32,171 nucleotides of DNA from a virus: positions 1 to 32,171 of the IMG/VR virus record IMGVR_UViG_3300047510_002518; one strand, 5' to 3'. Positions 900-22,570 of the stretch are shown here, in pieces. The notes under the pieces were generated by a model. The model saw only the letters and a list, made by a program, of their open reading frames with translations, did not search any database and was not told the DNA's origin. The position numbers and the translations under genes were made by a program. The stretch's first letter is position 1; every line of letters starts with the position of its first letter.

Positions 900-2813
900 T
901 TACTTTACAGCAGAATGGTAGAAAATAGCCGCAGAATATTCTTCTAGCGCATATTCTTCCGCAGTGTCCAAGATTTCTTGCATGGGCGAAAGCTTTTCAA
1001 TATGATCCATGTCATTAAAACATTTCTGCAAATTAAAGACCCAATCTTTTCTATTGCTCGATGCAACGATCTTCTTGCATAGCTGAGTTACGCTTTCGTT
1101 CTGTTGGTCATTTAGTTTTTCTACTTTGAATCTTTCTGCCGCAAAAGATACTGCGGACTTCATGAATGTATCAATTTCGTACACTGTAGACTGAATGTCT
1201 TTTCTTGAAGCTTTGGCGACCGCTGGTCTCCCAGCGGTTGAATTTGTAGGGGCGCCTGTTGGAGCACCGACAAACTCCTCGATAACTGGAATGCCGCCAA
1301 CGATTGGATTATAATGACCCTTTTTGCGCTGCTCGAAAAGAGCGTCCTGCGCAGGCGCGAGTTCGTCCGCGCTCGGAAGCTTGCCAGTTCTAATAGATTC
1401 GATGCCTTGTTCTGGAGACAGAACTCCGATTTCGATCATTCTGCTGATCGTTCTCATGTATTCTGTTTCATTCTTAAGGTCAATCTCAGTAAACTTTGCT
1501 GTTGGATATGCGCGAAAGCCAAGATCTTTAGAGATCCTTACTATCTCTGGCTGAAGAATATCATTTAAGAATGCATTGCGAGATTCTTTGAGCCTCTCCA
1601 TGAAGAAGCTGATTTTCGCATTTGCTCCGTTGTACTTTTCCTCTCCAAGCATAACATTCATCAAGCCTTCTTTGATATCTCGATCTAATACTTTATATTT
1701 TTCCTCTCCGACAACTTTCTTAAGATCAGGAATAACAAATTCTGCTCTTGTAGTATAGTCAGAAACAAGAACGCGCCCAACACTTTCATTCATGAAAAGG
1801 TTTTGCATGGCGGTCATGTTGGCGGGATTGATTCCGCCCTTGTCTGGGTCCGCGCCCATTGTAATAAGCAGAATAACATTCTCCACAGTGCGCGCAATAG
1901 CTTGATCAATTCTTTTTAATTCGATTTTGGCATTTACGTCTTCCAAAACTGGATAGCAAAACGGGATAGCAAAAGGCTCATAATCCTGTTTCTTGTAAAA
2001 AGAATAAGTTAAAAACTTTGGATCTAATTTAATCTTCAACCCGTCTCTAAAGTATTGCTTGTTCTTAATTTTTTCTCTAGTATCTGGATCAAGACCATTA
2101 AGAAGTTCAACGTCCGCATCATCTTTTGGATTCTTTAGTCTTTCTAATTCGTATTCGGAAAGAATTTTCTCGTAGACGGCATCCGCGAAAGAGCTAGAGA
2201 TGGTGGTTACGATCTCATAAGGATTAAGCAAGATATAGCGGAGAGGAACCTTGTTATTCTTGATTCCATTCTCGCTGAAACCAGAAAGAAGCTTGAAATC
2301 TTCCGCATTAAACTTGCCGTCGATTCTGTAATAAAAAATATTACCGCTTCTGTAATACTCGCGGAAGTATTGATCTTTCAGTTTCCAAAGCTTGATCTTT
2401 TCAAACCATTTGTAGAAGAACTCTCTGCTTCTTTCAGTGCCGCCTTCTAAATAAATATCAGTATTGGCAAACTCTGTTTGGATATCGATTGTATTTCTGA
2501 CAATAGCGACATTAGCGTATGCCTTCTGGCACAGCATAATGGCATCTCTTACGTCAATGCCGTCTTTTGAATAATCAAAAGGCAAGAGTCCTTGGCTAAG
2601 AACAGTGTATCTGCCAGCTAAAACATCAGTGCCATTTCTTGGAACTCTTGTGTTGGTGCCGCCACCAGAACTAGCTCTTGAGGCTTGAGAAATCTCTTTG
2701 TAAAATGGCTCGCCAATAAGTTTTGGCTCTGCGGTGGCATTGGAAAACTGAATTGGGGCTGAATCCTTCTTTCTGTTCCAATAATCAGATTTTTTATTAT
2801 ATTGGCGCGGCAT
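900..2813 (-). CDS. Portal protein
   Basis: 637 residues, usual size for a large-phage portal, placed between terminase and prohead protease. The portal is the dodecameric ring at one head vertex through which DNA is packaged and to which the neck attaches. The N-terminal 60 residues are basic and low in complexity. The body then has the mixed alpha/beta stem-and-clip look, including a stretch with many aromatic residues near 135-165 (FFYKWFEKIKLWKLKDQYF). The C-terminal 100 residues look helical and acidic. No strong Shine-Dalgarno precedes the ATG; the leader is A/T-rich. The call combines size, composition and gene order; no single diagnostic motif exists for the family. Confidence 0.8.
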   Translation of the reverse strand: MPRQYNKKSDYWNRKKDSAPIQFSNATAEPKLIGEPFYKEISQASRASSGGGTNTRVPRNGTDVLAGRYTVLSQGLLPFDYSKDGIDVRDAIMLCQKAYANVAIVRNTIDIQTEFANTDIYLEGGTERSREFFYKWFEKIKLWKLKDQYFREYYRSGNIFYYRIDGKFNAEDFKLLSGFSENGIKNNKVPLRYILLNPYEIVTTISSSFADAVYEKILSEYELERLKNPKDDADVELLNGLDPDTREKIKNKQYFRDGLKIKLDPKFLTYSFYKKQDYEPFAIPFCYPVLEDVNAKIELKRIDQAIARTVENVILLITMGADPDKGGINPANMTAMQNLFMNESVGRVLVSDYTTRAEFVIPDLKKVVGEEKYKVLDRDIKEGLMNVMLGEEKYNGANAKISFFMERLKESRNAFLNDILQPEIVRISKDLGFRAYPTAKFTEIDLKNETEYMRTISRMIEIGVLSPEQGIESIRTGKLPSADELAPAQDALFEQRKKGHYNPIVGGIPVIEEFVGAPTGAPTNSTAGRPAVAKASRKDIQSTVYEIDTFMKSAVSFAAERFKVEKLNDQQNESVTQLCKKIVASSNRKDWVFNLQKCFNDMDHIEKLSPMQEILDTAEEYALEEYSAAIFYHSAVK

Positions 2814-2832
2814 CTTTTATATTAAAGATTAC

Positions 2833-2866
2833 ACCAAAAGTATCAAAAGTAACTTAAAAGTACTTT
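2833..2866. repeat. Three TACTTTT direct repeats between terminase and portal
   Basis: On the minus strand the 54-nt gap between terminase stop and portal start holds three TACTTTT copies spaced roughly one helical turn apart. They could be a factor-binding site or simply AT-rich leader. Confidence 0.4.
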
Positions 2867-2867
2867 T

Positions 2868-4736
2868 TTACCGAGCGAAAAATGGAGTGAAAGTACTTTG
2901 AACAGATTCAACCTTGGCTTCCATCATATCAAGATATATTTTTGTCATCCAATTGCCTAAAACTAGGCAAGAGTAAGAGTCTTTTCTTGTTTTCTCTGCG
3001 CCATTTTGTTTTTTAAGCTCTACTGGCAAATCAAAGCTTTGGTGTCCATTGGCAGTCGTTGTTGGCATAATCAAAGAGCATTGCGCCTTCACAAGCTCAA
3101 TAAGATCAGCTTGATGATCTACAAAATCTACCATTTTAGCTTCTACTCCTTGCCCTTCCTCTTGATCTCTGAAAAATTTTAAATTTTTAATTGGTATGGA
3201 TTTAGATTTCTGAGCAGTAAAGTCATTATCGATAGCCTCTGCGGCGAACAGGATCTTTCTATGGTCAAAATTAGACTGAAGGAGTTCGTTAGCGTATCTT
3301 ATCCAGCCGCTTGTAGGAACTCGTAAATAACAAATTTTATTTGTGCTCCTGTTATAAGAGTTTCTAGCTTTTCGCATCTCGTCTTGATAAGTTTCCGGCG
3401 AATCAAAATCGCCTTCAAAGATTTTTACGTTAAGTTTTGCTTCTTTGAATAAATCGCTCTCATTAGCAGCGTTTATAAATTGCAGTCCACCGTTATAGTC
3501 ACCACACATTGCAACAACATTGAAGTTAGTTAAAAGATAATGCAGATATTCTATATGTTTTCTTAAATTAGTTCCTGAAACTGCATAGTTATGAACAAGA
3601 ATTCCCCTTCTGCTGCCTTTATCTAGCTTGATCAGATTCATTGCGAAGTCGTCGGAAGAATCTGTTTCTGCCCAAGATGGGTCGAAGCTTAAAATATATT
3701 CAGCGCTTTTTTCTCCAGCTAATTCGATGCACTGCCCTTCGCCAGCTTTGATTGTGCATTCGTGCATTTTGCTAAGTTTGAAGTAACCAGAAGAATCATC
3801 TACGAATTGAGAGCCAAACTCGCGCTTGAATTGCGATTCCGACATCGTTGACTTCGCTTGCGTCAACAAACTTTCGTCGTATAGTCCGTGAGGCGCGATA
3901 TCATACGAAAAATGCAGGATCGCCCTTGTTGCCCCGCCTTTGCCATCTTTTTCTGGAGTCTCTATCAAATTTTCGTACTGCTTGTAAAGCTTGTACATGT
4001 ATTCAAACTGATAGGATGCAGACGACAAAACAATAATTTTATTATTCGGCCATTTGAATCTATCTTGCTCTGTCATCTCACCTCTTTTAATTAGCTCAGT
4101 CTCCAAATCGTAAACTTGTTTTCTTTCTGTTGGGTTCTGCACAACAGACAAGAACGGAATAATAACTTCATTAAAAATTCTTTCTGGCATCAGCAAGAAT
4201 TCGTCGATCATCATTCTGTGAAAGCGAAAACCGCGAAGCTTTTCACCGTCGCCAAGAGGCAAACACGTAATTTTGCTTCTGCCTATCTCCATCGTCCATT
4301 CATCTGAGCTTTTTGTGACTTTAGTGATACACTGCTTCAAAAATACCGCTTGTGGCTTTTCCGCAATTTCTTCGATTTTTTTGAAAATCATTTTCGCCTG
4401 ACGGAACGTCTTACTTACAATACCAACGTGAACACCTTGGTTTAGTATTGCGTCAAGCGACGCAAAGACAGCGCAAGTAAAGCTCTTGGATAGCCCACGA
4501 CTCCACACCATCATAGAATAGTCTGTTTCAAACATCGTCTTAATAGCCAAATGCTGAAACGGGAAAAGCTTAACCCCACAAATCATTTCTGAAGAGAACG
4601 AAATATTGGCGCGAAGAAACTTATAGAGAAGAATTTTAGCATCTCTTTCTTCCAAGAATCCTTTTTTTGACAGGATTTCTTCGTTTACGTTACGAAACTG
4701 TGCTTTTCTTTTTTGGTTTCCTTCTGTCCAAGCCAT
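2868..4736 (-). CDS. terL: Terminase large subunit
   Basis: 622 residues from the ATG at 4736, chosen because AAGGA precedes it at suitable spacing; a longer frame exists upstream but is less likely. The packaging motor pumps DNA into the prohead and cuts concatemers. The ATPase half has a Walker A-like SRGLSKS (79-85), followed by MMIDEF (175-180) as Walker B. The nuclease half has FDPSWAETDSSDDF (351-364) with the acidic residues of the RNase H-like fold, CGDYNGG (411-417), and a late DHQADL. The classical R-G-x-G-K-S loop is R-G-L-S-K-S here. The gene overlaps the upstream ERCC4 nuclease gene by 52 nt, implying coupled translation. Confidence 0.93.
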   Translation of the reverse strand: MAWTEGNQKRKAQFRNVNEEILSKKGFLEERDAKILLYKFLRANISFSSEMICGVKLFPFQHLAIKTMFETDYSMMVWSRGLSKSFTCAVFASLDAILNQGVHVGIVSKTFRQAKMIFKKIEEIAEKPQAVFLKQCITKVTKSSDEWTMEIGRSKITCLPLGDGEKLRGFRFHRMMIDEFLLMPERIFNEVIIPFLSVVQNPTERKQVYDLETELIKRGEMTEQDRFKWPNNKIIVLSSASYQFEYMYKLYKQYENLIETPEKDGKGGATRAILHFSYDIAPHGLYDESLLTQAKSTMSESQFKREFGSQFVDDSSGYFKLSKMHECTIKAGEGQCIELAGEKSAEYILSFDPSWAETDSSDDFAMNLIKLDKGSRRGILVHNYAVSGTNLRKHIEYLHYLLTNFNVVAMCGDYNGGLQFINAANESDLFKEAKLNVKIFEGDFDSPETYQDEMRKARNSYNRSTNKICYLRVPTSGWIRYANELLQSNFDHRKILFAAEAIDNDFTAQKSKSIPIKNLKFFRDQEEGQGVEAKMVDFVDHQADLIELVKAQCSLIMPTTTANGHQSFDLPVELKKQNGAEKTRKDSYSCLVLGNWMTKIYLDMMEAKVESVQSTFTPFFAR

Positions 4737-5653
4737 GATGAATCCTTGTCTAAAAAGTATTGAATGTCCACATCCCAAAGAACGCTGCCCATTGCAACTA
4801 ATTTAGGAATTAAAATTTCGCTATTTGTTCTGTTGCCAGAAAATACAAATTGGCAATAGCCCGCAAACTCATGTTGCAGTAATCTCATATTATGATAAAT
4901 AAATTTAAGATTTGCCTTATGAGGAGTAAAGTCGTTGTTGTTTTTTATTCGCTCAAGCGAAGACTCGACGACGACATACAAATAAGACTCCATCTGTTTG
5001 CATCTTTGTATTTCGCGTCTAAATCTTTCCAAGTTTTCTCCAACAAGAGTGCCTTTAAAATCAGACTCAGACTTTCGGTCTACAAAAGTTTTTGTATAGT
5101 GTGCTCCGCTTGCCGTATAATCTCCAAAGTCTAACTTAACATTCCTTTGGTTTTTAAACTCTAAAGGCTGCTGTTCTCTTGTGTCCACAAAAATGTTAAC
5201 CTCAGAAAAATCTTCATAGAATTTTTTGGGCAAACTTCTTCTGAACATTGGATTTACTCCAATCTCATCGCAAACTTTAGAATAGGAACCAAAGTGCTTC
5301 TTGTATATATCAATCGAAGGCATGTCGCTGGTCTCAAGCTCCAAATGAAACGGAGCGTAGTTTAATTCTTTGTTCTTAACTCTGTTCGCAAGCATTTTTT
5401 TAATATACTCTTTAACAACTTCTGGCGATTCTATTTCGCACCACCTTAAAAGCTGCTCTCTATTATCAAAGTCTTTATCAAAATAAGACTCCTTGTCTTT
5501 GAAGGCCAAAAGAGTCCCAGTTAAAAGATTTTTCTTAGGGTGATGCTTTCTGTAATAGTCTCCAAGCGAGAACTTATGCTTCTTGATATGGGTGTGCAAA
5601 GCCCTTTCGCTTTGGAAGATGTTATTGCATTCTAGACACTTAGACTGCATCAT
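4685..5653 (-). CDS. ERCC4-type nuclease with N-terminal C2H2-like zinc finger
   Basis: 322 residues. The N-terminus has C6-x2-C9 followed by H20, H22 and H26, a C2H2-like finger likely to bind DNA. The C-terminal half carries the XPF/ERCC4 nuclease signature: VDTRE (156-160), GDY (177-179) and VDRKSESD (191-198), giving the metal-binding acidic residues and the D/E-R-K motif. Such nucleases cut branched DNA or flaps. The 3' end overlaps the terminase start by 52 nt and the 5' end overlaps the gene before it by 14 nt. This position suggests a role in resolving branched replicating DNA before or during packaging. The start could be either of two adjacent ATGs. Nuclease activity is inferred from motifs. 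Confidence 0.85.
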   Translation of the reverse strand: MMQSKCLECNNIFQSERALHTHIKKHKFSLGDYYRKHHPKKNLLTGTLLAFKDKESYFDKDFDNREQLLRWCEIESPEVVKEYIKKMLANRVKNKELNYAPFHLELETSDMPSIDIYKKHFGSYSKVCDEIGVNPMFRRSLPKKFYEDFSEVNIFVDTREQQPLEFKNQRNVKLDFGDYTASGAHYTKTFVDRKSESDFKGTLVGENLERFRREIQRCKQMESYLYVVVESSLERIKNNNDFTPHKANLKFIYHNMRLLQHEFAGYCQFVFSGNRTNSEILIPKLVAMGSVLWDVDIQYFLDKDSSWLGQKETKKEKHSFVT

Positions 5654-6710
5654 TTAATGATATTCCCATGATGCGAGCTTTCCATTCCACCATAGATTCC
5701 ATCTTTTGCGCCTCATCCATAACCAGCGACTTTTGCATTTCGGCAATTTTAATCATGTTGGCTCGCTCTTCCTCGTCTTGAAACAACTGAACAATAGAAA
5801 GGATTGATGCGTTTTCTTTTTGTCTTGAGGAGATTCTTTCGCGCCTGTCGCCTTGCAGCTTTTTGATTAAGCTCTCTACACGCCCTTCGCACTGGTGATA
5901 CTCGCTGCTTTTGGCTTTGATGATTTCGGCTAAACGAATACTCATTTCATTCTGTTCCTGAGTCTCCTCAAACATTTTGTTTAGCTTGTCCAAGTGTCTC
6001 GACGTAGTTTCAAGATTAATAATTTCTTTACAAACGTTCATATACAAGTTGACCTCGTCAGCGGTGAGATCTGGCTTATCCCAAGTCATTCTAATAAACT
6101 CTTGCTCAAAAATATTGCGATCTTCGTGAGAAGTGTAGCAGTTTATAATCTTTTGAAATCTAGAATTGCCCAAGTTGATGGATAGCTTATCCATGCAGAC
6201 TTTGTGATGCCTTGTAAGCCGTTCCTTGTCTAGCTTCTCGCCAGTCGCATCATTAATCTTATTGATGATACGCTCTGCTGAACGAGGGACTTGATATCTT
6301 ACAAAAGCCGCATTATCTGACTCGGAGTTGTTTTCGCAGCCAGAGATTTTAATATAGTTGCTAACCGTTCTGTGTTCAGACCCCATTGCCGCAATTGACT
6401 TTCCGGGGTAAAGAAGTTCTGCAATTTTCAGTGAAGATATTCCGTCCCTAGCTTGATCTTCTATAAACTCCTGTTGCTGCTTGGTAAGAGGCAAGTCTCC
6501 AACTTTTTCATATTTAGACGTCTTATATTCAATTTTATTTGAGCCCAAAAACGATCTAATAGCAACGCCTTGCTTTGTTCTCCCATCCAACGTTTCATCA
6601 TTAAAGAATTTGCGCGTAATAGTATTTAAATCAGGGAATTGCTGGGCAAGTTCCTTGATTCTCTGACCCTCTTCCTCAGTAAATGTTATTTGATTTTTAT
6701 TGGTAGCCAC
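5640..6710 (-). CDS. Helical DNA-binding-like protein, possible terminase small subunit
   Basis: 356 residues starting at a GTG. The start is fixed by a 14-nt overlap with the preceding sigma-like gene. The first 120 residues contain segments that look like helix-turn-helix units (around LTKQQQEFIEDQARDGISSL). Residues 220-340 are strongly charged and heptad-like, consistent with a coiled coil. Two genes downstream lies the terminase large subunit, with the ERCC4 nuclease in between, so a small-terminase or packaging-adaptor role is reasonable. The protein is longer than most small terminases and no diagnostic motif is visible, so the function is a guess from position. Confidence 0.85.
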   Translation of the reverse strand: MATNKNQITFTEEEGQRIKELAQQFPDLNTITRKFFNDETLDGRTKQGVAIRSFLGSNKIEYKTSKYEKVGDLPLTKQQQEFIEDQARDGISSLKIAELLYPGKSIAAMGSEHRTVSNYIKISGCENNSESDNAAFVRYQVPRSAERIINKINDATGEKLDKERLTRHHKVCMDKLSINLGNSRFQKIINCYTSHEDRNIFEQEFIRMTWDKPDLTADEVNLYMNVCKEIINLETTSRHLDKLNKMFEETQEQNEMSIRLAEIIKAKSSEYHQCEGRVESLIKKLQGDRRERISSRQKENASILSIVQLFQDEEERANMIKIAEMQKSLVMDEAQKMESMVEWKARIMGISLNDAV

Positions 6711-7410
6711 CTAAAATATCCTCGCTTTGTAATATCTTAATCGCTACTGAGCGAAATAGTTTTTTAAGATTTTTGATTTGTTTATATCCTGCCTTTTTAC
6801 CCTTTTCGTTTGTTTTGTAACCCATCTCTGCCGCGACTTTTTCCTCATCAGCACCATCGATGTATAATCTAGAATACACTTTATATTGCTTAGGCGCTAA
6901 ACGATGCTTCATTTCTTCGTGCAACTTTTGTGCGCTACCAAGAACATCAAAGTTCAAATCTCGCATGCCCTGAACTGTTTCGGAATGGTTTTCTGTAGAG
7001 ACGGCGAGTTTTACATCATAGGCGCTCTTCTTTGTCTTTTCCCATTTTGAATACAGTGGACATTCCGAGCACTGGAGGCCGCTAGGAGTTATCGAGCAAG
7101 CTGGTGGTTCATTACCTTGATTATACTTGCACGCCAAACAAGGGCGCACATAATTCGAATAATTATTCCGCAATAAATTCTTGATCTGATTGACCGTTAT
7201 TCTTGAGATCCAAGGCTCAAGCGGGCGGTCCTGTTTCCACATCTTCCATTTCTTGGAAATATGGAAGCGAATAATCTGAGCGACATCATCATAATCCATC
7301 CAAGCAATTGCTTTTAATTGCCAGATGTACCTGTGCTTTTCGATTATTCTATCTATTACGTCTTGCTTGTCTTCGTATCTAATCTTGCGCCTCAGTTTTC
7401 GTTTTTCCAT
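6697..7410 (-). CDS. Sigma-70-like RNA polymerase sigma factor with Cys-rich insertion
   Basis: 237 residues. Residues 15-85 resemble sigma region 2 (WMDYDDVAQIIRFHISKKW, then LEPWISRITVNQIKNLLRNNY). Residues 165-232 resemble region 4 with a helix-turn-helix (KVAAEMGYKTNEKGKKAGYK). Between them lies an insert with five cysteines at 91, 94, 105, 114 and 117, including two CxxC pairs, likely to bind zinc. It would direct host RNA polymerase to phage promoters. Because it sits in the structural operon it may be a late-gene sigma, but this is inference. It overlaps the zinc-ribbon gene before it by 32 nt and the next gene by 14 nt. Confidence 0.75.
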   Translation of the reverse strand: MEKRKLRRKIRYEDKQDVIDRIIEKHRYIWQLKAIAWMDYDDVAQIIRFHISKKWKMWKQDRPLEPWISRITVNQIKNLLRNNYSNYVRPCLACKYNQGNEPPACSITPSGLQCSECPLYSKWEKTKKSAYDVKLAVSTENHSETVQGMRDLNFDVLGSAQKLHEEMKHRLAPKQYKVYSRLYIDGADEEKVAAEMGYKTNEKGKKAGYKQIKNLKKLFRSVAIKILQSEDILGGYQ

Positions 7411-7756
7411 ATTTAGTGGGTGACAAGCTTTCTATCCCACTTACTCTTTTAGACGCAAATTTCTTGACTGAGGCATTCTGAGGGTTGCGAGTCAAGTCTT
7501 CTAGATTAAAAGCCCTAAAACTTCCTTCAATTTCTACTTCCAGATCAAGCTTGTCCAACTGAGGAACCTCCTCAACATTGGAATGCTCGTCATCTTCATC
7601 TTGTTCTGTTTCTACCGCTCTAGCTTGAGGCTGCTTTTTTGCGACGCTTTGCGAAACTTTACCCCCCATTGGGCTTCCGCATTTGGAGCAGAAGTTTGGG
7701 GCAAACCCAGCATATTCGTGTTTGCTTCCGCAATTACTACAGAACATTAAGGCCAT
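7379..7756 (-). CDS. Double zinc-ribbon small protein
   Basis: 125 residues. Two CxxC pairs near the N-terminus (CSNC at 6-9 and CSKC near 22-25) form a zinc ribbon. The rest is acidic and low in complexity (EQDEDDEHSNVEEVP) and ends in a basic tail. It overlaps the sigma-like gene by 32 nt, so the two are translated together. A zinc ribbon next to a sigma factor suggests a transcription accessory protein, but no direct evidence of function exists. The ribbon resembles the generic ones found at the start of many bacterial membrane and regulatory proteins; no transmembrane segment follows here. Confidence 0.75.
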   Translation of the reverse strand: MALMFCSNCGSKHEYAGFAPNFCSKCGSPMGGKVSQSVAKKQPQARAVETEQDEDDEHSNVEEVPQLDKLDLEVEIEGSFRAFNLEDLTRNPQNASVKKFASKRVSGIESLSPTKYGKTKTEAQD

Positions 7757-7757
7757 T

Positions 7758-8090
7758 TTATTTCTTTTTATCTAAGTCGTTGACTTTGTCGTTGAGATTT
7801 TCCAGCTTTGTTAATATTTTAGTTATATCTCTTTGTATTTCAACCATCTTATCAGTATTAACTGGGGCTCCGTCATCGTCAACGATCTTAGATAAACGCC
7901 TTGAAATGCTTTTTACCTCATTATTTACGTAAGCCATTTGCTCGGCCTGCACTTTAATTTCTCTAGCAACTGGCAAAAAGTCTTCTTTTTTTACGTAAGT
8001 AGCGTTCAGATAAAATAAAACAGAAGCGATCAAGATCCCACCAAAAACCTTTATTGCATTGGCCCAGATATTGACGCGCTCCATTTTCAT
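7758..8090 (-). CDS. Small membrane protein with coiled coil
   Basis: 110 residues. A single transmembrane segment lies near residues 12-30 (AIKVFGGILIASVLFYL), followed by a long helical, heptad-like stretch (40-108) ending in DLDKKK. The shape is N-in with a periplasmic coiled coil, or the reverse. This is also the shape of inner-membrane spanins, but its place in the structural operon between PhoH and the zinc-ribbon gene gives no support for lysis. It ends 2 nt before the zinc-ribbon start and begins 3 nt after the PhoH stop, so it belongs to the late operon. Function unknown. Confidence 0.75.
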   Translation of the reverse strand: MKMERVNIWANAIKVFGGILIASVLFYLNATYVKKEDFLPVAREIKVQAEQMAYVNNEVKSISRRLSKIVDDDGAPVNTDKMVEIQRDITKILTKLENLNDKVNDLDKKK

Positions 8091-8092
8091 CT

Positions 8093-8830
8093 TTATCTAC
8101 CTGTCTTTACACCTTTTGAGTTGATTTTCTTGATAATAAATTTCAAGATTGCGCTTCTTTTAATGTCCTCTTCTGTGAACTCAAAAGTGTAAATTCCATT
8201 CTTTTGCGAATCTTCGTCTGAAAATAGATTATAAAAGTCGAGAAATCCGTTTTGGGTTTTGATATCTGGCTGCATAAAGTCTCCGCATAGAAATATCTTT
8301 GACCCCTCGCCAATTCTGGTAATAAGGGTAGTGATCTCTTTAGCGCTGAAGTTCTGGACCTCATCTGCGATTATAATCTTGTCGCTTAACGTGCTGCCAC
8401 GCAAAAAGTTAATTGGAGTAGCAGAAATTCTGCCCTCGTCTCTTAACCTATTAGCGTCAACAGGATCAATTATTTCTTGAACTTTGTCTTCCAGAGGGAG
8501 TAGATACGGCTGGAACTTTTCTGCCACAGAGCCCGGCAGCGATCCAATAGATTTGTCAGCGCTTTCTGCGATAGTTCTAATATATACGATATCTTTTTCA
8601 TTGTGGTTGATTAGGTTTAAGGCCGCATAAACGGCCATAAAAGTTTTTGATGTTCCTGCTGGACCAGCAATAAAAACTATTTTAGTTTGCTCTTCCAGCA
8701 GTATTTTTAACAGATCTTGTTGTTTTTCGGTAAATTTAAATTTTCTTTCTTTGAATTTGATTTCCGTTTTCATCTGCGGAATAATGACTTCCGAAGATGT
8801 CTGTTTTGTTTTCTTGGGCTTTTTTGCCAT
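8093..8830 (-). CDS. phoH: PhoH-family ATPase
   Basis: 245 residues, typical of phage PhoH proteins. Walker A GPAGTSKT is at 56-63 (Ser in place of the usual second Gly), Walker B IIIADEVQNF at 152-161, and a CGDFMQPD motif at 182-189, with late RSAILKFIIKKI. PhoH proteins are P-loop NTPases, some with RNA helicase or nuclease links, common in marine and freshwater phages. Their role in infection is not settled. The gene sits in the late operon between the tail-tube-like gene and a small membrane protein, with 3-nt spacings on each side. The first 20 residues are Lys-rich and probably disordered. The A/T-rich leader has no clear Shine-Dalgarno. Confidence 0.93.
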   Translation of the reverse strand: MAKKPKKTKQTSSEVIIPQMKTEIKFKERKFKFTEKQQDLLKILLEEQTKIVFIAGPAGTSKTFMAVYAALNLINHNEKDIVYIRTIAESADKSIGSLPGSVAEKFQPYLLPLEDKVQEIIDPVDANRLRDEGRISATPINFLRGSTLSDKIIIADEVQNFSAKEITTLITRIGEGSKIFLCGDFMQPDIKTQNGFLDFYNLFSDEDSQKNGIYTFEFTEEDIKRSAILKFIIKKINSKGVKTGR

Positions 8831-8833
8831 AAA

Positions 8834-9643
8834 TTAAACCATCTCTTCTACAATCCGTAGCCCTCCTTTTGCTACTCCGTTCGCATCGATAGAAATGTTC
8901 TGTTCGCTTAACACTCCTGCTAAAGAAATTGTATTACCGTCAGCCATAGTTACCGTCAAAGTGCCGCTGGTGTTTGGCTGATAATCAGAAAGCCAATCCA
9001 TATTAGATATACCTTCCAATTGAAGCGATTTTGTTATTTTTGCTACGCTTGTTTGTGTTGGATAAGCATTTCCGATCTCAAAATTTGGGCGGCGCTCTAC
9101 TTCTACTGAAAAACTTAAACTTTCGTACTCAGAAATAGTTTGGGTAAAGTTTGTGGTTGTAAAAGCAATAGCCATTCCTCTTAATGGAGAAATAATGCCT
9201 GTCTGAGCTTCTTGAGAGGTGTAAACATTAATTCCTGAGCCTGTTGCTAGACCATAAGAATCGAACTGAAGATTTGCCGTTGCTACTTTCCAAGGCTCAA
9301 AAGAAACGGAAAAGCTTTTTAAGAAACATTTGTCAAAACGATAATCGGGAACTTGGATATAACAGCCGCTAGTTGAATTTCCAGTTAAAGCTAAAAAGCC
9401 TGTTAATTGGTTAACGCTACTTCCAGTAACAGGAATCACCGTCATTGAAACAGAAGCCGTCTTTGGTCCCGTTTGTATGTAATAATCAAGCTCTTGCCCA
9501 ATTCTTTTAACTCTTGTTAAAGCTGTACTATTTGAAGCGGCAAAATTTGTTGCATACAAAACATTATAAATGCCCGTATTCAAGCTCTGCTCATCTTGAT
9601 TAGAGAGGAATGGGCGAATATTATCGTATGTAACGTAAGCCAT
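8834..9643 (-). CDS. Phage structural protein, probably tail tube
   Basis: 269 residues, beta-rich and rich in Ser, Thr, Gly and Asn, with few charged residues, as in virion proteins. The pattern of repeated short strands (KTASVSMTVIPVTG, CFLKSFSVSFEPWKVATANLQF, YESLSFSVEVERRP) fits the beta-sandwich of tail-tube or related proteins. It is the first gene of the minus-strand late operon, divergent from the glycosyltransferase operon. About 100 nt of AT-rich sequence lies between them; an AT-rich TAAATATA box lies a few bases before the ATG, but no Shine-Dalgarno is seen. It could also be a head-decoration or neck protein; the tail assignment is from composition only. Confidence 0.7.
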   Translation of the reverse strand: MAYVTYDNIRPFLSNQDEQSLNTGIYNVLYATNFAASNSTALTRVKRIGQELDYYIQTGPKTASVSMTVIPVTGSSVNQLTGFLALTGNSTSGCYIQVPDYRFDKCFLKSFSVSFEPWKVATANLQFDSYGLATGSGINVYTSQEAQTGIISPLRGMAIAFTTTNFTQTISEYESLSFSVEVERRPNFEIGNAYPTQTSVAKITKSLQLEGISNMDWLSDYQPNTSGTLTVTMADGNTISLAGVLSEQNISIDANGVAKGGLRIVEEMV

Positions 9644-9702
9644 GTGATATATTTACACTTAAAAATTATGTTACGTTTTCATCACGCATTTTTCCAAATG
9701 TA

Positions 9703-17519: not shown

Positions 17520-18215
17520 TTACGCATAAACAACAAAGCCGCTTGCGTCTTGCTTTGCCTTGCCTTTTGCCTTCAGACCGATGACGCAATTGCGTGGATC
17601 GAGAAAGCGCAAATCCGTTTTGTCCCCGTTCACCACCTCAAACCCGTTCCAGAATGCAGGGAAGGAATCAGAAGAGAAAACAACAGCAACATTCCCGCCG
17701 TCGCGCAAGACTTGCAACGCTTGCGCCTCGTTTGATTCGGAACGCGAAAAAGTCAAGTGATAATTGGCAGGGAGAAGACCGTTGCAGTACGCCAGCATCC
17801 GCACGGGGTTTTTCGTGTAGTCGTACCATTGCACGGAAGGGAAATCCGAAAAGAACTTGAACCGTTCCCACGGGATGTCGGAAGTCCCGTTGAGCCTCAC
17901 GCAAGCCTTCGCGCCACGCTTCGCGCAATAGGCTTGGAAGGCGACGACATCCTCGCGCAGCAAGCGCAGAAACTCGGCGCAATTGTCAAAGAAAAGTTGC
18001 GTTTTCCGCACGCGCGCGGATTGCACGCTGTTCATTTGCCCGCGCCCCGCCGTGAAAAGGCACCCAGCGGTGCAGGCAACGGAACGGTGGGAGCACACTT
18101 CCCCGCGCCCCGCAATCTTGGCGGGGGCGAGATACAAAATCGCGGTCAAGTAGTCCGCGCCGTTGCCCTTGCGGGTCTTCGCGTCAGCATTGAACGAAAG
18201 CAATTGAAGTTTCAT
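17520..18215 (-). CDS. gp88-like conserved phage protein
   Basis: 231 residues. A cysteine cluster C41, C48, C52 ahead of AGRG, then RLNGTSDIPWE (107-117), YDYTKNPVR (131-139), LTFSRSESN and later GGNVAVVF and a VNGDKTDLRFLDP end. This order matches, from memory, a phage family named after mycobacteriophage gp88, of unknown biochemical function. The protein is on the minus strand within a mostly plus-strand island. Its start lies 8 nt after a CACTCT box that resembles the plus-strand promoters. It ends before the convergent terminator and repeat copy 4. Confidence 0.8.
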   Translation of the reverse strand: MKLQLLSFNADAKTRKGNGADYLTAILYLAPAKIAGRGEVCSHRSVACTAGCLFTAGRGQMNSVQSARVRKTQLFFDNCAEFLRLLREDVVAFQAYCAKRGAKACVRLNGTSDIPWERFKFFSDFPSVQWYDYTKNPVRMLAYCNGLLPANYHLTFSRSESNEAQALQVLRDGGNVAVVFSSDSFPAFWNGFEVVNGDKTDLRFLDPRNCVIGLKAKGKAKQDASGFVVYA

Positions 18216-21640: not shown

Positions 21641-22570
21641 TCAACTCCTAACAACTTCAAGCACTTTCGAGCCTGCCGCCGTGAGCTTGCGCGACCCTTC
21701 AATCTTCATGAAACCCTTTTGGAGTAGGAAGATTTCGGAATCACGTTGGAGCGAGGAACGGCTCATGCCAGTGATAGCACTGAGCATATTGAGCGAGCAG
21801 TCGCCACGATCCTTGAGCGCACGGAGAATCTGAATTTCGGTATTGTTAAGTCCAGCGGGGTTAATGCCGATCTTGCTGCACAGGTCATCCCACTCCTTAC
21901 AACCAAAATTCTTGCTTGCTTTGGTATCGCAGTACATCTCGATCTGCTTTGCACGCTGGACAGACGAGCGGGCATTGCCACGAACAGTAGTTGCGACTCG
22001 CTCCAGAGCCTCGCCCTTGAAGGAAACGTCAGGAAGAATCTTTTGGATAATCTTGCCAACGTCACCGTGAGAATAGGTCTGGAAATCGATGTGAGTCAGG
22101 CGGTCCTTGAGCGGGCCAAAGAGCTTGTCAGCTTCAGTAGTCGCAAGCATGAACGTCTGCTTCTTGAAGTTGAACTCGTACAGCCCGTCGCGCCAGCTTA
22201 CCTGTTTAACGTCCGTCCTCTCAGTATTGAAAGCAGTGAGGAGTACAGTCATCAAGTCCTTGGGCAAGGCATGGCACTCGTCGAGCAGCACCGTGATCTC
22301 GTTGCCTTGGATGACAGGGGCGAACACCTGTTCAAAGAACACTTGAGCATTCTTGATGGTGCCGCAATTGATTTCGAGGAAAGCCTTGGGAGCGCCGTCC
22401 TCGGCCTTGATGGCGCGAGCAGTCTCCTTGGCGAACTCGGTCTTGCCCATGCCCTTGGCACCTGTCAGCAACAGGAAAGGAAAACGCTTGGTCTTCTCAT
22501 GAGCGTCGAGATAGAAGTTGAGCTTCTTCTTGACATCCTCCTGACCAATCAATTCAGCAAAACGATTCAT
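21641..22570 (-). CDS. RuvB-like AAA+ ATPase
   Basis: 309 residues. Walker A GAKGMGKT (37-44), Walker B LLDECH (95-100), an ATTEAD sensor-1 region (143-148) and a LKDRL segment (154-158) where RuvB has its arginine-finger stretch. A small helical lid follows. About residues 240-305 form a winged helix (TEIQILRALKDRGDC, then LSAITGMSRSSLQRDSEIF) as in RuvB. RuvB drives Holliday-junction branch migration, but no RuvA or RuvC partner is seen in this window, so a clamp-loader-like or helicase-loader role is also possible. It is 12 nt after the AT-hook gene and shares its promoter. Confidence 0.85.
   Translation of the reverse strand: MNRFAELIGQEDVKKKLNFYLDAHEKTKRFPFLLLTGAKGMGKTEFAKETARAIKAEDGAPKAFLEINCGTIKNAQVFFEQVFAPVIQGNEITVLLDECHALPKDLMTVLLTAFNTERTDVKQVSWRDGLYEFNFKKQTFMLATTEADKLFGPLKDRLTHIDFQTYSHGDVGKIIQKILPDVSFKGEALERVATTVRGNARSSVQRAKQIEMYCDTKASKNFGCKEWDDLCSKIGINPAGLNNTEIQILRALKDRGDCSLNMLSAITGMSRSSLQRDSEIFLLQKGFMKIEGSRKLTAAGSKVLEVVRS

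Follow-up and report, generated by a model that had tools for sequence, protein, structure and literature searches.

Does the sigma-like gene that lies within the packaging block of this phage encode a factor for late transcription and, if so, which promoter element does it read? We addressed this question in the whole stretch of DNA available, hereafter the window, which comprises 32,171 nt (positions 1 to 32,171 of IMG/VR record IMGVR_UViG_3300047510_002518), and in its relatives. An initial annotation had placed the gene at 6697-7410 without giving a strand; these coordinates are correct and the strand is minus, on which the frame is open over 237 aa, the plus frame being interrupted by stops. 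The zinc-ribbon gene said to overlap it is likewise real: its product carries two CxxCG knuckles, and it shares 32 nt with the start of the sigma gene. In the window, the genes are transcribed in the order 269-aa protein, PhoH, 110-aa protein, zinc-ribbon protein (P0002), sigma (P0001), 356-aa protein, ERCC4 nuclease, terminase and portal (Table 1). No family was found for the 269-aa protein, and no PHROG matched it below E 0.09. The ERCC4-type nuclease has a weak N-terminal C2H2-like finger and a fixed place between the 356-aa protein and the terminase. Elsewhere on the minus strand of the window lie a Gene product 88 family protein (17520-18215, E 7.4e-45) and a RuvB-like AAA ATPase (21641-22570).

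Table 1. Features of the sigma locus and its surroundings, ordered by position in the window.
Feature	Positions	Strand	Basis
Portal protein	900..2813	minus	weak: phrog_16240 E 3.9e-4; position after terminase
GTGTAA, 15 nt before portal gene ATG	2829..2834	minus	20/24 clusters
Terminase large subunit	2868..4778	minus	phrog_2 E 7.1e-30
ERCC4-type nuclease, conserved neighbour	4685..5653	minus	phrog_3490 E 2.7e-11; synteny
356-aa conserved neighbour downstream of sigma	5640..6710	minus	weak terminase-small-subunit similarity, E 0.045; synteny
P0001, sigma-like protein, 237 aa	6697..7410	minus	open frame, Sigma70_r2, AF2 model and PDB comparison, synteny
Sigma-4-like segment, residues about 156-230; most conserved stretch GYKTNEKGKKAGYKQIKNLKK	6721..6945	minus	fold and conservation
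Cys module, residues 84-134	7009..7161	minus	conservation; low-confidence AF2
Invariant C91, C94, C105, C117 codons	7138-7140, 7129-7131, 7096-7098, 7060-7062	minus	alignments
Variable C114 codon	7069-7071	minus	alignment
Sigma-2-like segment, residues 37-83 (modelled helices from residue 12)	7162..7302	minus	Pfam and fold
P0002, zinc-ribbon protein, 125 aa, proposed partner	7379..7756	minus	present in 40/40 clusters
110-aa protein	7758-8090	minus	gene order between PhoH and zinc-ribbon
PhoH-like ATPase, conserved neighbour	8093..8830	minus	PhoH E 5.3e-46; synteny
GTGTAA, 16 nt before ATG of 7758-8090 (110-aa gene); doubtful	8107..8112	minus	1/6 clusters
269-aa protein, operon head in freshwater-type relatives	8834..9643	minus	synteny
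GTGTAA, 9 nt before ATG of 8834-9643 (head of operon running into sigma)	9653..9658	minus	6/10 clusters at 269-aa gene

The region-2-like and region-4-like segments proposed for P0001 are both upheld, sigma-2 by sequence and fold and sigma-4 mainly by predicted fold. Residues 37-83 match Pfam Sigma70_r2 with an E value of 2.9e-4 and 21 bits against a curated cut-off of 24; the same family is matched by 42/42 family members at E<=0.01 (best 5e-6), and the protein of locus L209 exceeds the cut-off with 26.1 bits. Region 4 is weak by sequence, with Sigma70_r4_2 matching 1/42 members (E 0.0052), and mean pairwise identity reaches 0.85 over residues 197-218 (41 rows). An AF2 model of P0001 computed from 42 rows has a mean pLDDT of 72 and a pTM of 0.38, with most blocks of both domains at 81-92; well-modelled helices occupy residues 12-82 and 156-229 and flank a weak middle. 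The initial annotation had said that a model with no sigma-2 or sigma-4 fold would count against a sigma factor; the AF2 model shows both. Compared with the PDB by VIA, sigma-2 superimposes at 2.7 Å over 76 residues on the SigR N-terminal fragment (1h3l), and sigma-4 at 2.9 Å over 69 residues on sigmaE region 4 (2h27) and at 3.1 Å over 73 residues on SigL region 4 (3hug). The per-domain Z scores are 7.4-7.5, values that can be middling for helical proteins, and every one of the 50 matches listed is titled as a sigma factor; the rmsd of 10-24 Å for both domains together reflects domain placement. In a whole-chain Foldseek search of the PDB nothing reached E<=0.001, the best match being SigH (4.5e-3, probability 0.99), and a sequence search of the PDB returned chance matches alone (best E 0.14). 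By its sigma-2 domain and its predicted sigma-4 domain, then, P0001 is probably a sigma-70 family protein. In its two-domain sigma-2/sigma-4 layout it resembles the bacterial ECF sigmas SigH, SigE and SigR, which supply its best PDB matches; it differs from them in a linker of about 70 residues with a Cys module and in falling far under the cut-off of the sigma70-ECF model TIGR02937 (NCBIfam), with 18.8 bits against 42.9.

The linker contains cysteines at 91, 94, 105, 114 and 117, exactly where the initial annotation had put them. Four of these, C91, C94, C105 and C117, are invariant in 42/42 sequences, including relatives 47-90% identical to P0001, and a second alignment has the same four in 38/41 rows, the other three rows being gapped where ORFs were shortened by the ATG-start rule. 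C114, by contrast, is kept in 27/38 clusters, 9 of the others having D and 2 having S; L209, the most divergent member, retains all four, with D at position 114. The Cys-rich insertion claimed earlier therefore stands as a conserved module but not as a five-Cys site: because C114 is kept in only 27/38 clusters, a site of four cysteines is the most economical reading. Loci L125, L130, L133, L164 and L170 combine Asp at position 114 with one more Cys, located in the module's variable loop. Mean pairwise identity is 0.78 for residues 84-95 and 0.74 for 105-134, versus 0.76 for 37-83 and 0.58 for 156-230, so that, apart from the loop 96-104, which varies in length, conservation of the module equals that of sigma-2. 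A model of the insert on its own (pLDDT 61) predicts one helix that leaves sigma-2 and reaches as far as the first Cys, then two strands of one residue each, and another helix that begins beside C117; it had no match in the PDB by Foldseek at E<=10, and a Pfam search of the window's insert found no family.

The spacing is C-x2-C...C-x11-C, and C91, C94, C105 and C117 supply the four conserved candidate ligands that a zinc domain calls for; judged from these alignments, the module is probably a zinc module. Spacing does not decide between metals, and four invariant cysteines would fit an Fe-S cluster as well as zinc; we nevertheless regard a cluster as improbable, since a C-x2-C pair and two further Cys, within a short conserved module next to a zinc-ribbon gene, would be more usual for zinc, and no Fe-S family rose above noise (HIPIP in 3/38 members, best E 0.28). 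The position of the cysteines also recalls CorE and CorE2 (ECF238), for which the available text of PMC8999054 describes a CXC in the sigma2-sigma4 linker that is needed for activity, CorE2 responding to Cd and Zn. A metal or redox switch of this kind, making the factor responsive to metal or redox state, seems to us equally improbable for P0001: CorE depends in addition on a Cys-rich domain at its C-terminus, whereas P0001 has no Cys after 117 and a different motif; the spacing and the 42/42 invariance look structural; and it is not evident why a late factor would need a sensor of this sort.

In sigma-70, region 3 stands directly behind sigma-2. The Cys module of P0001 adjoins sigma-2 directly, where sigma-3 would be. 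Among the open-licence papers listed, none describes a phage sigma whose linker contains a zinc module, and the available text of PMC7824862, which treats phage sigma factors and zinc ribbons, describes no sigma with such a linker module.

A sigma factor with this Cys module in its linker is carried by a widespread group of uncultured water phages. Scans of IMG/VR, from each of which the best 80 relatives were kept, returned 339 stretches with P0001 as query, 312 related stretches with a divergent family member, and at least 560 related stretches of 599 with a 16-row alignment. Cultured phages gave a different picture: with P0001 as tblastn query, 50,697 phage records yielded nothing at E<=1, and a consensus fragment and the L093 homologue as queries found chance matches alone (E 2 or worse). 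In GTDB genome contigs P0001 alone had no match, and the 42-row alignment had three, all in MAGs and at 41-51% identity; the MAG labels of these contigs conflict (Halobacteriovorax, Flavobacteriaceae, uncultured), and the binning of phage contigs is unsafe. WhiB, sought as a sign of actinobacterial hosts, occurred in 0/13 records. The order PhoH, zinc-ribbon, sigma, 356-aa, ERCC4, terL, portal recurs across 175 loci as far as the fragments reach, and it is kept in the three GTDB loci (L207-L209), with extra ORFs in L208 between PhoH and zinc-ribbon and one more before terL. The initial annotation had suggested that sigma and zinc-ribbon proteins form a late transcription pair, and at the level of synteny this holds: the two genes lie side by side in 40/40 clusters formed at 90% sigma identity, which makes the zinc-ribbon protein a likely partner of the sigma. 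Its family has a conserved CxxCG...CxxCG and an IPxIxKLxYxIE-like stretch. Some family C-termini (e.g. L125, L133, L161) end in RGRPRK or similar, which we take to be AT-hook-like.

To look for a promoter motif upstream of late genes, as had been proposed at the outset, we called genes by a simple codon score in three long relatives, G001, G002 and G003 (193.8, 203.1 and 127.1 kb), and compared observed with expected k-mer counts in front of the called genes. Two classes emerged, CTTGACA and GTGTAA(T/A). Of all 6-mers in the interval 5-16 nt ahead of start codons, GTGTAA has the top rank in each of the three records, with 23 occurrences versus 0.37 expected (204 genes), 24 versus 0.46 (217) and 9 versus 0.23 (133), corresponding to Poisson tails of 3e-33, 8e-33 and 4e-12; G001 and G002 are not independent here, 17 of the 23 G001 motif genes having a homologous motif gene in G002. 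The excess persists among genes preceded by a gap of at least 25 nt (12 versus 0.18 of 98, 13 versus 0.20 of 94, and 7 versus 0.11 of 64), and tightly spaced genes carry the motif too (11/106 in G001, 11/123 in G002). Genome-wide counts of GTGTAA are not raised (58 versus 66, 72 versus 70, and 36 versus 34), and it is therefore the position of the motif that is selected. The window alone has no enrichment (10 versus 10.1 expected), and only positions are informative there. As controls, the same method recovered TATAAATA in T4 (11 versus 0.37), and at 5-16 nt T4 and phiEco32 yielded Shine-Dalgarno-like words, not GTGTAA; in 45 kb of phiEco32, the gp36 element was not recovered. No -35 element stood out upstream of GTGTAA, though sigma-4 is present, and among the open-licence papers listed none links GTGTAA to a promoter motif of phages. 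GTGTAA is thus a candidate promoter-like element, apparently a single -10-like sequence with no -35, and it stands before the portal gene and the operon head.

The genes that bear the motif point in the same direction. We took one representative per cluster and counted GTGTAA 4-22 nt before the ATG, for which shuffled means were 0.04-0.56. The initial annotation had suggested action on AT-rich operons; the feature that the motif marks is the operon head: it precedes portal in 20/24 clusters, the 269-aa gene in 6/10, prot3 in 7/24 and PhoH in 12/31, although some PhoH sites (e.g. L026 and L052, 4 nt from the ATG) overlap the last codons of the upstream gene and are doubtful. Inside the block it is nearly absent (zinc-ribbon 1/40, sigma 0/40, 356-aa 0/39, ERCC4 0/39, terL 0/36). 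The GTDB loci, with sigmas down to 41% identity, offer an out-of-sample comparison: PhoH, portal and prot3 are preceded there by GTGTAA or GTGTAT. Comparison of 19 G001 motif genes with PHROGs identified a minor tail protein, three tail or fibre proteins (two clearly, one by a weaker match), one structural protein of the virion, a Clp-like protease and PhoH; the other genes had no family, an unknown function or a weak match. A 654-aa motif gene is a portal homologue, by upstream sequence shared with the L105 portal. Since PhoH, the Clp-like protease and the RNR large subunit carry the motif (the last being a G002 homologue, which has TTGAC as well), it is not purely a structural-gene element. 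Conserved direct and inverted repeats resembling AAAGTNACTTTT occur between terL and portal just before GTGTAA, in the window at about 2829-2870 and in L136 and L155.

The second class of k-mer marks other genes. The 10 TTGAC genes scanned include rIIA, rIIB, RNR small, an endonuclease and a weak deoxyribosyltransferase, and none is structural. In T4, rIIA and rIIB are early genes. Early-type genes at L177-L197 (from G001 and G002) have TTGAC-N17-TATAAT-like promoters. TTGAC stands 35-37 nt before the ATG in 11/24 cases in G001 and 13/27 in G002, as counted by eye, with an unclear spacing in G003 (9 genes); because this distance recurs so often, the sequences suggest that early mRNAs are leaderless too.

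The commonest distance from GTGTAA to the ATG is 8 nt (11/23, 10/25 and 3/12, the last tied with 10 nt, and sites reach up to 20 nt). A spacing fixed at the place where a Shine-Dalgarno would lie is also what a translation signal would show. GTGTAA is not complementary to the 16S tail, which speaks against such a role; it is missing in front of the genes inside the block (sigma, 356-aa, ERCC4, terL), and the TTGACA genes of the same phages display the same short promoter geometry, making a translation signal very improbable. As a promoter, the element has a parallel in phiEco32 gp36, which according to the available text of PMC8948821 relies on one element alone, tAATGTAtA, and initiates transcription 6-8 bp downstream of it. 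A phiEco32-like geometry would place the start of transcription at or just before the ATG; because GTGTAA lies at exactly 8 nt from the start codon more often than at any other distance, we infer that the late mRNAs are nearly leaderless.

What reads the element? We consider P0001 to be a phage late sigma for host RNA polymerase that reads a single -10-like GTGTAA(A/T) near the start codon, with a probability of roughly 0.68. Sigma-2 would open the DNA and read GTGTAA(A/T), which is so placed that transcription would start at or a few bases from the start codon; sigma-4 would dock on the polymerase flap, with no conserved -35 element being used, and the co-encoded P0002 would be a likely co-factor. 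That P0001 itself reads GTGTAA is probable from the co-occurrence of sigma and motif. In 11/12 relatives Sigma70_r2 matches nothing but the Cys-module sigma; G001 has one more weak match, under the cut-off. A multi-subunit polymerase (PF00562) was found in 0/3 large records, which may be fragments, the positive controls being matched, and a search for a phage single-subunit polymerase (PF00940), run with no positive control, found none.

This link between sigma and motif is correlative, and the sigma gene lies within the packaging block, so GTGTAA could instead be read by an alternative sigma of the host or by some other DNA-binding protein of the phage; P0001 might then, for example, recruit polymerase or parts of the packaging apparatus at the terminase block. 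The window even has a second sigma, P0004 (27021-27614, minus), a canonical ECF-type protein with 40.6 bits to Sigma70_r2 and 42.2 bits to r4_2. We rejected P0004 as the reader, as it was absent from 12/12 other records searched: present in 1/13 records only, it is missing from relatives that nevertheless have the motif. The Cys-module sigma, by contrast, is the Sigma70_r2 protein that they share, and the motif holds to 41% sigma identity; another reader is accordingly unlikely. If P0001 is the reader, its own supply needs an explanation, for the head of the sigma operon carries GTGTAA, and a TTGAC-TAnnnT promoter lies within 300 nt upstream in only 1/30 clusters. The first sigma must then be made by read-through or from an unrecognised promoter, or be delivered with the virion.

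The proposed late sigma can be set beside two known phage systems. With phiEco32 gp36 and phage 7-11 gp47, which serve middle and late genes, it would share, on our proposal for P0001, a phage-encoded sigma acting with the host core on late genes, and a search of BFVD structures has the sigma of the phiEco32-like phage GAP52 as its top match (E 7.1e-3). The differences are that gp36 reportedly has no homology to region 4 while P0001 has a predicted sigma-4 fold, that the motifs diverge (tAATGTAtA versus GTGTAA), that no sequence relation between gp36 and P0001 was found by hhalign (E 0.72), and that gp36 DNA has no such Cys module. T4 gp55 is not known to have a sigma-4 fold, which P0001 is predicted to have. 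The T4 gp55/gp33/gp45 system is otherwise similar in combining sigma-2 homology followed by an extra element, a single -10-like promoter (TATAAATA) and a small second protein; in the available description, gp55 has a helix-loop-helix directly behind sigma-2, at the place that the Cys module takes in P0001. The gp33 family (PF16805) occurred in 0/13 records, several of them fragments (T4 control E 6.3e-28), the T4-type clamp (PF02916) in 0/3 large records (T4 control E 2.9e-35), and no bacterial clamp was found in the relatives. A fuller version of the late machine can be drawn, which we hold tentatively and at less than even odds: the zinc module at the sigma-3 position would help to read or hold GTGTAA, the zinc-ribbon protein would be a co-activator replacing gp33 and the clamp, and leaderless virion mRNAs would be made from a single element despite the presence of sigma-4.

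With P0001 as late sigma, a large uncultured group of aquatic phages gains a testable transcription programme, in which host sigma-70 promoters would serve early genes and a phage sigma with GTGTAA would serve late ones. A sigma linker with a metal module would be a novel means by which the open complex is shaped, and with the GTGTAA motif late genes could be called straight from metagenomes.
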